Below are positions 13,323 through 15,849 of a stretch of 35,186 bases of DNA, piece by piece; the first letter of the stretch is position 1, and the number at the start of each line of letters is the position of its first letter. The stretch spans positions 1 through 35,186 of the IMG/VR virus record IMGVR_UViG_3300030419_000546; one strand, written 5' to 3'. The position numbers were made by a program, and so were the translations under genes. The notes beneath the pieces were generated by a model that saw only the letters and a program-made list of their open reading frames with translations, ran no database searches and had not been told where the DNA came from. This DNA comes from a virus.

Positions 13323-13350
13323 GTGGGGAGAAATCGGTTAAACTCCCCAC
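13323..13350. promoter_or_regulatory. Hairpin between the divergent arms
   Basis: A perfect 8-base-pair inverted repeat, GTGGGGAG (13323-13330) and CTCCCCAC (13343-13350), has a 12-base loop. On the plus strand it is followed by ACATTTTTT, like a terminator. On the minus strand it lies in the leader of the regulator gene. It could terminate stray rightward transcription or control the regulator leader. Similar GTGGGG-type hairpins occur at 16480 and 18894. Confidence 0.6.
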
Positions 13351-13378
13351 ACATTTTTTAACTAGAAAGGGAGGCTTT

Positions 13379-13519
13379 ATGATTCGTAAAAGAATATTTT
13401 TTAAAACCTCATTTTTGTTCTTATCCAATTTTTTCATATTCGTCTATACTATTATTATTAAATTAAAAATTGTAATTACGATTGAGAATTATTTAGCTTT
13501 TTTAGTCATTTTTTGCTAA
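13379..13519 (+). CDS. Small hydrophobic membrane protein (46 aa), first gene of the rightward arm
   Basis: The frame from ATG 13379 has a strong ribosome site (AAAGGGAGG) preceded by the AACTAG element that marks most genes of this arm. The product is basic at the start (MIRKRIFFK), then hydrophobic nearly throughout (FLFLSNFFIFVYTIIIKL and IENYLAFLVIFC). One or two membrane spans are likely. Function is unknown. Early-arm membrane microproteins of phages often act on the host envelope, but that is inference. Confidence 0.55.
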   Translation: MIRKRIFFKTSFLFLSNFFIFVYTIIIKLKIVITIENYLAFLVIFC

Positions 13520-13602
13520 ATGCCTGATTTTTGGCTTAAAAGTCGCTATTTTGGCGAGAACAAAGTATTTGCCATTTCTGTCCATTTATTTAAGGTTAAG
13601 GT

Positions 13603-13791
13603 ATGTCTTATAAAAAAATATATTTAAAAATGTCAGTTTTTCTGATGCGTTTTTTAGACGAAGTCTTGATGAAGCAGTCAATTCGTTTTTTTACTAGAAC
13701 TGTCAAATCGGTTTTAGTTGATACTTTTATTAGTATCGTAAAAAAATTATTCGTGTCCAAAGCGGTAATTTTTAGCAGTTTGCGTAGGTAG
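13603..13791 (+). CDS. Possible small basic protein (62 aa), doubtful
   Basis: An open frame of 62 codons starts at ATG 13603 behind a weak AAGG site and lacks the AACTAG element of its neighbours. The product is basic and hydrophobic (MSYKKIYLKMSVFLMRFLDE, ending VSKAVIFSSLRR). A palindrome at 13720-13737 lies inside the frame. It may be a real microprotein, or the stretch may simply be a regulatory region that happens to be open. Confidence 0.3.
   Translation: MSYKKIYLKMSVFLMRFLDEVLMKQSIRFFTRTVKSVLVDTFISIVKKLFVSKAVIFSSLRR
13720..13737. promoter_or_regulatory. Palindromic operator-like site
   Basis: The arms GATACT (13720-13725) and AGTATC (13732-13737) form a perfect inverted repeat with a 6-base spacer. 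Size and symmetry suit a dimeric Cro/CI-type protein, and one is encoded just to the left. There is no T-run after it, so a terminator is unlikely. Binding is not shown by sequence alone. Confidence 0.4.
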
Positions 13792-13813
13792 ATAACTTAT
13801 CCATATAGGATAA
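13780..13813 (+). promoter_or_regulatory. Candidate rightward promoter overlapped by a palindrome
   Basis: TTGCGT (13780-13785) and TATAGG (13804-13809) have an 18-base spacing and resemble a weak sigma-70 promoter. The palindrome TTATCC-ATATA-GGATAA (13797-13813) covers the -10 element, as an operator would. Transcription from here would begin near 13816 and pass through the whole hammerhead ribozyme at 13896. The -10 match is modest. The gap 13520-13895 otherwise holds only the doubtful 62-codon frame and an imperfect hairpin at about 13830-13856. Confidence 0.35.
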
Positions 13814-13895
13814 ATTCCTTAAGCAAAATCGCCTCTTCACTTTCGTGGTAAGCGACAGGGTTTTGATTAATTTCTTAACTTGTTAAAAAGTCCTT

Positions 13896-13974
13896 CTAGT
13901 TTCTATAACCTTTAGCAAGTTATACTGATGAGTTCGCTAGTGTTAATCGTGTTCACACTAATACGAAAAACTAG
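13896..13974 (+). ncRNA. Hammerhead ribozyme, type III (leader of the 13984 gene)
   Basis: All core elements are present in type III order. Stem III pairs CTAGTTT (13896-13902) with AAACTAG (13968-13974). The cleavage dinucleotide is UC at 13902-13903, with cutting expected after C13903. Stem I pairs TATAAC (13904-13909) with GTTATA (13919-13924) around a 9-base loop. CUGAUGA is at 13925-13931. Stem II starts with G13932-C13964 and U13933-A13963, then an internal loop, then a 6-pair helix TAGTGT (13938-13943)/ACACTA (13955-13960). GAAA is at 13965-13968. Stem III can extend through A13975 and G13976 into the ribosome site AGAGG. Activity is predicted, not shown. Confidence 0.88.
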
Positions 13975-13983
13975 AGAGGTACA

Positions 13984-14220
13984 ATGAGAAGAATAAATAT
14001 AAAATATAATAATAAATTAGAAACAAAATCTTTTGACAATGTTAGAGATTTTGAAAACTATATAGAAACTACATTTAATTTTGATAGTCCAGACGAGTGT
14101 GCTAATTTTGTTTGGGATTTAAATGTTGGTAAATGTTTAGAAATGAATAGCTCTTATTTTGGTATAGTAAGATTTTCAATACAATCAAAAGCAAGAGTAG
14201 GAAATCAATTAGTTTTATAA
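13984..14220 (+). CDS. Small protein downstream of the type III ribozyme, unknown
   Basis: The 78-residue protein has an AGAGG ribosome site inside the shared AACTAG context. The N-terminus is basic and beta-like (MRRINIKYNNKLETKSFDN), then an acidic helical part (VRDFENYIETTFNFDSPDEC). It looks like a small soluble domain, but I do not recognise it. The stop codon is immediately followed by the next ribozyme, so a terminating ribosome would cover the ribozyme's stem II strand and GAAA. Confidence 0.7.
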   Translation: MRRINIKYNNKLETKSFDNVRDFENYIETTFNFDSPDECANFVWDLNVGKCLEMNSSYFGIVRFSIQSKARVGNQLVL

Positions 14221-14287
14221 TGCCGAAACTAGCGAATCATAACTCGCTAGTCTAATTATCGTGGATTGATAATTACTGATGATGGCA
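14221..14287 (+). ncRNA. Hammerhead ribozyme, type II (copy 1)
   Basis: The type II order is open at stem II. Stem II pairs TGCC (14221-14224) with GGCA (14284-14287). GAAA is at 14225-14228. Stem III pairs A14228-A14235 with T14244-T14251, eight pairs, closing an 8-base loop. UC is at 14251-14252, with cutting expected after C14252. Stem I pairs TAATTATC (14253-14260) with GATAATTA (14268-14275). CUGAUGA is at 14276-14282. One extra U (14283) separates the core from stem II, as in the other two type II copies. Two perfect 8-pair stems flanking intact core sequences make chance unlikely. Confidence 0.88.
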
Positions 14288-14586: not shown

Positions 14587-14681
14587 GCCGAAACCAACGG
14601 AGCGATTTAAAGTTGAGTATAACTTTAATGAGTATATCTGCGTTGGTCTATTTACTGTGATGAGTAAATACTGAAGATGGC
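14587..14681 (+). ncRNA. Hammerhead ribozyme, type II (copy 2, extended stem III)
   Basis: Stem II pairs GCC (14587-14589) with GGC (14679-14681). GAAA is at 14590-14593. Stem III pairs A14593-G14599 with C14641-T14647, seven pairs. Its large loop contains a second perfect 8-pair hairpin, TTAAAGTT (14607-14614)/AACTTTAA (14621-14628). UC is at 14647-14648, with cutting expected after C14648. Stem I pairs TATTTAC (14649-14655) with GTAAATA (14664-14670). The core is CUGAAGA (14671-14677), where A is allowed at the variable position. The extra U is 14678. Stem II is only three pairs, so in vivo strength is uncertain. Confidence 0.85.
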
Positions 14682-14712: not shown

Positions 14713-15756
14713 ATGAAAAAAGGTCATAATATAAAAGAGGTGCTTGAAAGAATTAATGAAGATAAAAAACATAAAACAGATTATCTTGTTAATTTAAAAA
14801 GCATAACAATAAAAGAAGCATCTGATAGTGTTTATCCAAATATTGATGTAGATCATTTAACTACATCACCGCATAACTTATCAGATCATTCTTTAAATCA
14901 ACTGTGTGGAAGATTAGAGATTGGTACACATTACATTAATAAATGTTTACCTGTATCTCAAAATCTTGTTGCCCATAACTTAAATTTTTGGATTAATAAA
15001 TCTAAAGATAAAGAGTTAATGATTAGAACATTTGAAAATGATTCTAAACTGTGCAGAGCAATTATGTCAAATCGGTATAAAAGAATTGATAATGATGTTG
15101 TTGCTAATCACTCTTTAAACAAGTTAATGGATATGAATGCAGATTTAAAATATTCTCATTATGATAGAGATACTTTAAATATTACTGCAGTTCTTCCAAA
15201 ACTTGAGGGAGAGGTTGAAAAAGACGATATAGTTCAAGGTGGTATTACTATTACTAATTCAGAAGTTGGTGGTGGTAGTTTAATTATCCAACCATTTATT
15301 TACAGATTAGTTTGTACTAATGGAATGGTAGCACCAAGATACTTAAATCGTTTCTACGCAAAGCATGTTGGTAAAGTAATAATTAATCCAGAGAAAGATG
15401 AACAATGGATTACTATTATTAAGAAAATGCAAGAACAAATAGAACTTGTAAGCAATCCAGAGTTATTTCAGGAAAACTTACAAAAACTAAAAGATGCTAC
15501 TGAAAAGAAAGTAACTTCTCATGAAATTGTTCAACTTACTAAAAGACATGGTGTTTCTGATTCTGAAAGAGCACAAATCTTTGAAAGGTTAAAACATTAT
15601 GTAGGAGATACTTTTACAACTAGCAAATATGAACTTGCTAATGCAATTACTAATATTGCTAATGATGAAGAAAAATCAGATCAAAGGTCTAGACAATTAC
15701 AAGAACTTGGTGGTTTGATTATCTTTGCTCATAACCCAATGCAAATAAGAATATAG
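14713..15756 (+). CDS. DUF932 phage/plasmid-like protein
   Basis: The 347-residue protein from ATG 14713 has AGGAGG at 14701-14706. An upstream in-frame ATG at 14677 is part of the ribozyme and is rejected. DUF932-like segments are LCRAIMSNRYKRIDNDVV near residue 118, then GGITITNSEVGGGSLIIQPF and RLVCTNGMV. The family is widespread on plasmids and phages and often lies beside recombination genes, but its biochemical role is not established. Here it precedes a RecB-like nuclease gene by five genes. Its stop codon contributes the first base of the next ribozyme. Confidence 0.82.
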   Translation: MKKGHNIKEVLERINEDKKHKTDYLVNLKSITIKEASDSVYPNIDVDHLTTSPHNLSDHSLNQLCGRLEIGTHYINKCLPVSQNLVAHNLNFWINKSKDKELMIRTFENDSKLCRAIMSNRYKRIDNDVVANHSLNKLMDMNADLKYSHYDRDTLNITAVLPKLEGEVEKDDIVQGGITITNSEVGGGSLIIQPFIYRLVCTNGMVAPRYLNRFYAKHVGKVIINPEKDEQWITIIKKMQEQIELVSNPELFQENLQKLKDATEKKVTSHEIVQLTKRHGVSDSERAQIFERLKHYVGDTFTTSKYELANAITNIANDEEKSDQRSRQLQELGGLIIFAHNPMQIRI

Positions 15757-15819
15757 ACGAAACAAGGGGATTTAATTCCCCTTGTCTATCTAGGGTTGTT
15801 CCTAGGTACTGATGATGTC
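15756..15819 (+). ncRNA. Hammerhead ribozyme, type II (copy 3)
   Basis: Stem II pairs GAC (15756-15758) with GUC (15817-15819). The first base is the last base of the upstream TAG. GAAA is at 15759-15762. Stem III pairs A15762-A15770 with T15777-T15785, nine pairs including four G-C. UC is at 15785-15786, with cutting expected after C15786. Stem I pairs T15787-G15794 with C15801-A15808, eight pairs with one G-U. CUGAUGA is at 15809-15815. The extra U is 15816. Stem II has changed from GCC/GGC to GAC/GUC with pairing kept, a compensatory change supporting the fold. Confidence 0.87.
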
Positions 15820-15849
15820 AGCTACATTAAATTAACTAGAAGAGGGCTT

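Follow-up and report, generated by a model that had tools for sequence, protein, structure and literature searches.

In the cultured phage HTVC112P and its marine relatives, a hammerhead ribozyme always stands between a structured leader RNA and the first gene, and its cut probably sets the leader RNA free from the first mRNA, much as the operon's type II ribozymes would part one gene's RNA from the next. The DNA analysed here (the window) is the whole of the 35,186-base IMG/VR virus record IMGVR_UViG_3300030419_000546, whose closest cultured relative is Pelagibacter phage HTVC112P. The hosts of these phages, the SAR11 bacteria, are the most abundant bacteria of the ocean. Little is known about what hammerheads do in bacteria and phages, and no report of hammerheads in pelagiphages was found in the literature searched.

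A type III hammerhead before the first ribozyme-linked gene

The leader hammerhead occupies positions 13892-13979 of the plus strand when its extended stem III is included, with the core element at 13896-13974. Its parts follow each other in the order NUH, stem I, CUGANGA, stem II and GAAA with stem III open, which is the type III arrangement (H17 at C13903, C3 at 13925, G12 at 13965). Stem III is formed by 13896-13902 (CTAGTTT) and 13968-13974 (AAACTAG). The hammerhead consensus and the alignment of 37 homologs place the predicted cleavage nucleotide at C13903, so that the cut would fall between 13903 and 13904. Stem I (TATAAC/GTTATA with the loop CTTTAGCAA; 13904-13924) contains compensated pairs. 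The catalytic core CTGATGA (C3-A9; 13925-13931) was identified by the consensus and the Rfam alignment, as was the closing segment 13965-13974, made up of G12-A14 (GAA) and the 3' strand of stem III. Between them, the homolog alignment resolved a stem II arm (13932-13964) consisting of the core pairs G-C and U-A, the pseudoknot strand and an extra hairpin. The ribosome site AGAGG (13975-13979) adjoins stem III and is followed by ATG 13984, the start of a 78-aa gene (13984-14220) for which tblastn detected relatives and a Pfam search gave no match. The positions of stem III, cleavage nucleotide, ribosome site and start codon thus agreed with the initial annotation.

Among the relatives of the window, 37 related type III leader ribozymes were collected, 29 of them distinct. 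The downstream DUF932 protein and the ribozyme pattern served as seeds for homologs, and leader-pattern and protein searches were run independently of the ribozyme pattern. Six pattern matches in unrelated contigs (L106-L110 and L112) were regarded as chance and excluded. A host origin of the ribozyme was also considered and rejected, as the ribozyme pattern had zero matches in 84,980 species genomes. Across the 29 distinct sequences, stem I pair 1.2 was compensated between AU and GC (23:6) and pair 1.3 between UA and CG (19:10). Compensation extended to stem III, and stem II retained two conserved pairs only. Loop I (bases 13912-13916) and the stem II arm (13936-13940) pair with each other, UUUAGC with GCUAAA, and form a pseudoknot with a compensated change in relative L055 and hence a tertiary contact between stems I and II. 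The 37 relatives, the two compensated stem I pairs and the compensated pseudoknot indicate that the family is real beyond chance, and self-cleavage is predicted. The Rfam family Hammerhead_3 (RF00008) aligned over 13896-13974 with an E value of 0.0036 in a 321-base search, scoring 24.7 bits against a gathering score of 48.5, which is a scoring cut-off and not a mechanistic feature.

A structured leader RNA and interchangeable ribozyme types

Upstream of the ribozyme, covariation among 11 distinct sequences revealed a conserved structured leader RNA, termed group 1, at 13713-13880 of the plus strand. It comprises hairpins at 13720-13737, 13742-13773 (loop GUCCAAA), 13779-13827 (enclosing an inner hairpin at 13797-13813) and 13829-13855, all on the same strand. 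In the 11 sequences, 96.8% of the cells of its 38 pairs were paired, and 17 pairs were changed on both sides, compared with 8.6 in shuffles, none of which reached 17 in 500 trials, and with 0-3 in slid controls. HTVC112P-like phages carry a different, second leader type (group 2; for example 4185-4330 of L002) with a covarying long-range stem of its own, in which one pair occurs as GC, CG, AU and UA. Common descent of the two groups is unproven, since a covariance model of the group 1 leader detected no link when run on group 2 loci. No Rfam family matched either leader RNA. A further domain (CUUGUUCGGUAAAAGUAGCUUCCAAACCUACUCUGGCAAUAUCAAG and variants), structured in appearance, is optional in group 2 and occurs in the leaders of L035, L058, L065, L043, L006 and L039.

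Several further elements were noted upstream of the leader RNA. A small hydrophobic reading frame of 46 codons (13379-13519) has its own AACTAGAAAGGGAGG site, and a AACTAGAAAGGGAG start is found in the same region in HTVC112P and many relatives. Repeats resembling AAATCGGTT surround a divergent start region (13330-13720) and could be operators; a gene close to them is annotated in HTVC112P as a regulator of the XRE type. A terminator-like hairpin (13693-13718) overlaps the repeat region.

Forty clear leader RNAs with enough downstream sequence were available (12 of group 1 and 28 of group 2). All 40 were directly followed by a hammerhead and then a gene, and none of the clear leader RNAs lacked a ribozyme, a count that is not selection-free because some of the relatives had been gathered with patterns containing the ribozyme or the leader. 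The hammerhead was type III in 34 cases and type II in six.

As the initial annotation had described, the three other ribozymes of the operon are type II, with cores at 14276, 14671 and 15809. All are on the plus strand: two lie between genes, at 14222-14286 (G12 14225, H17 14252, C3 14276) and 14587-14681 (G12 14590, H17 14648, C3 14671), and the third precedes the 15850 gene (15755-15827; Rfam RF02276, 43.8 bits). RF02276 missed the first two even at E 1, and the local type II variants may need a model of their own. In total, 50 distinct type II elements were identified in these loci; every one immediately precedes a gene, and 33 of them precede a CTAG-type ribosome site. From the difference in topology it had been proposed that the type III leader ribozyme does a different job. 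The relatives contradict this: six of them (L018, L014, L022, L025, L032 and L116) have a type II ribozyme in exactly the same slot, after the same kind of leader RNA. In L006 and L007, moreover, the window's own first gene (94% identical) with an identical AAACTAGAGAGGTACAATG ribosome site stands behind a group 2-type leader and a type II hammerhead, and L006 and L039 supply further group-2-like leaders followed by type II. These replacements show that the succession of leader RNA, cut and gene is the constant, and that topology and masking of the ribosome site vary. The module, its covariation and the interchange of types are thus evident from comparison of the sequences.

The AACTAG of stem III does not belong to the ribozyme in particular. 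Most genes of the rightward operon carry it directly ahead of their ribosome site, whether a ribozyme is present or absent, and so do HTVC112P genes that have no ribozyme; the ribozyme's stem III uses the operon's ordinary ribosome-site box. In the window, such boxes were seen at 13360-13374 and at other plus-strand starts up to 17360. Exchanges of genes and ribozymes were observed to break near AACTAG boxes.

Pairing of stem III with the ribosome site

The 5' strand of the extended stem III, which is also the 3' tail of the leader RNA (GUCCUUCUAGUUU; 13890-13902, plus strand), is complementary to the ribosome-site box according to folding and duplex energies. The initial annotation had extended the pairing to A13975 and G13976, which understates its reach. 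In the minimum-energy fold, the pairing covers AGAGG with G13976 bulged (U13895-A13975, U13894-A13977, C13893-G13978 and C13892-G13979) and continues with U13891-A13981 and G13890-C13982. The expectation that the uncut leader holds the site in a helix was borne out by prediction for the whole site, with a probability of being unpaired of 0.20-0.21. Such openness lies towards the bottom of the phage's range, though it is not unique, as three of the window's 27 other genes (11%) have a site as occluded. When CTAGTTTC was kept and the flanks were randomized, 24-25% of the sequences covered the ribosome site equally well. The shuffled-flank test for selection on masking was not significant for the window, and gave 3% for L017. 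The stem III extension is therefore weak evidence of selection.

Strand-site pairing is predicted in nearly all group 1 members, including L018 with its type II ribozyme, and the duplexes amount to -10 to -12 kcal/mol in group 1 versus -3 to -7 kcal/mol in group 2. A translational role of masking within group 1 is possible on these predictions. Strands that reach the site were found only in window-like (GUCCUUCUAG) and L017-like (CCUUUCCUAG) leaders and in L095 and L088 (CACCUUUUAG), where both stem III strands have changed together. In HTVC112P and most relatives the strand is A-rich and unable to pair that far, and in a third set of relatives a second AACTAG box separates stem III from the ribosome site. 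Masking is thus not conserved among the homologous leader ribozymes, being absent from HTVC112P and most others, and type II ribozymes occur as replacements. The folds suggest a sub-group feature, possibly with a regulatory role.

It had further been proposed that cutting at C13903 lets the 5' strand leave and frees the site. For the window itself the predicted effect is weak: openness rose from 0.21 to only 0.24-0.25 in free folding and to 0.39 with the ribozyme fold imposed. The gain is small since pairing with CUAGAGAG can be taken on by UUCGCUAG, a segment of the stem II arm. The proposal fared better in most other members of the sub-group, since window-like and L017-like type III leaders with a predicted openness of 0.00-0.27 when uncut mostly reached 0.4-0.9 once the 5' strand was removed; L095 gained nothing. 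For the product helix, the predicted energies were -12.2 kcal/mol at 37 C and -17.1 kcal/mol at 20 C. If the strands associate at 1e6 per M per s, an assumed rate, spontaneous release would be slow: it would take minutes at 37 C and much longer at the temperature of the sea. Free folding can likewise occlude the site in type II leaders, through other partners, so fold predictions of this kind discriminate poorly; ViennaRNA folding leaves out the pseudoknot and ions. Unmasking of the site by the cut would hold at most for one sub-group and looks secondary.

Role of the cut and comparison with known systems

The conserved structured leader RNA, the self-cleaving hammerhead and a gene with an AACTAG-type ribosome site would together form a processing module. 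In the proposed mechanism, the nascent early transcript would be cut at C13903 by the hammerhead, leaving a leader RNA with a defined 3' end (CUAGUUUC, 2',3'-cyclic phosphate). The first mRNA would thereby be separated and begin with a 5'-hydroxyl and the stem I hairpin. The leader hammerhead would be the first in a row that punctuates the operon into gene-sized RNAs, and the type III and type II versions would be interchangeable for the job. Pairing of the strand with the ribosome site would then be an extra of one sub-group with a longer, pyrimidine-rich partner strand. Activity of the ribozyme, this purpose of the cut and any role of the leader RNA are inferred.

A translational switch, a natural counterpart of engineered ribozymes that mask a Shine-Dalgarno site, appears unlikely. 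In it, the extended stem III would block the ribosome site of the uncut RNA, and departure of the strand after self-cleavage would start translation. The openness gained by most window-like and L017-like leaders, the stronger duplexes of group 1 and the co-changed stem III strands of L095 and L088 would all fit it. However, the pairing is missing from HTVC112P and most relatives, type II ribozymes take the place of type III, the window gains little (0.21 to 0.25-0.39) and L095 nothing, and random flanks mask equally in 24% of trials. The slow strand release predicted at 15-20 C also argues against a switch, without deciding the matter, as engineered hammerhead and twister versions with masked sites function in E. 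coli (PMC5052635). Another account, which we regard as very doubtful, makes the cut leader RNA a phage regulatory RNA whose pyrimidine tail (GUCCUUCUAGUUUC) pairs in trans with the AACTAG ribosome sites of the operon. Counting that of its own gene, eight ribosome sites of the operon pair with the tail at -11 to -16 kcal/mol; five of them (14713, 15850, 16787, 17063 and 17366) do so more strongly than the site of its own gene (-12.8 kcal/mol), and the tail favours plus-strand over minus-strand starts (rank-test P 1.5e-5). Nevertheless, the shared AACTAG box alone accounts for this complementarity, and the HTVC112P tail, which is of group 2, gives just -3.4 to -7.7 kcal/mol with the same sites. 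The complementarity may be a side effect of the common box or may serve an additional regulatory purpose.

The free recombination of ribozyme type, first gene and leader, with breakpoints near CTAG boxes (for example in L018 versus L017), would also suit hammerheads that are passengers of gene-cassette exchange at these boxes with little effect on expression. This is quite improbable, as compensation maintains the catalytic core, the stems and the pseudoknot, and every clear leader RNA is accompanied by a ribozyme. As a long shot built on the sequences, an obligatory hammerhead of either topology might mature the 3' end of the structured RNA, with the freed tail of the window's sub-group acting as an anti-ribosome-site sequence for the AACTAG operon. 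If true, one self-cut would open the first gene and release a regulator of the others. Detachment of the leader RNA by the cut is the reading preferred here. The natural topology replacements in the HTVC112P family make the role of the cut testable as leader maturation, formation of the mRNA 5' end or release of the ribosome site, and the leader is a structured RNA, not represented in Rfam, from phages of such abundant bacteria.

The leader hammerhead shares the topology, core, NUH cleavage site and whole-element alignment of RF00008, and differs from it in its score below the curated cut-off, a stem II core of two pairs combined with a pseudoknot of loop I, and a stem III that doubles as the ribosome-site box. 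Engineered masking ribozymes likewise place the site and an anti-site strand in one ribozyme stem, where cleavage can expose the site; PMC5052635 describes a twister that masks a Shine-Dalgarno site and cites a hammerhead design. Those are synthetic, whereas here masking occurs in one sub-group only and its relief by the cut is predicted to be poor in the window. A natural ribozyme in a 5' leader is tied to presentation of the ribosome site in Clostridioides difficile, where a c-di-GMP group I ribozyme changes it (PMC3984707, citing Lee et al. 2010); that ribozyme is splicing and ligand-controlled, neither of which is indicated for the window's hammerhead. In haloviruses HF1/HF2, a hammerhead variant lies 13 nt upstream of the helicase start codon (PMC3088659); there, too, a hammerhead stands immediately ahead of an early phage gene's start codon. 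Unlike the window, these are archaeal viruses with a core variant, and ribosome-site pairing is not discussed in the part of PMC3088659 available. In the same paper, Perreault et al. 2011 (PMC3088659) proposed that clustered hammerheads process phage operons, and showed cleavage of other arrays both in vitro and in vivo. The processing model agrees with this idea, as the ribozyme would separate the leader and the type II elements would separate the genes. The clusters reported there also have several hammerheads flanking single genes, mixed types, loop I pseudoknots and a proposed role in mRNA processing. What distinguishes the present loci from those clusters, as far as that account extends, is a conserved structured leader upstream and a single slot filled interchangeably by type III or type II.
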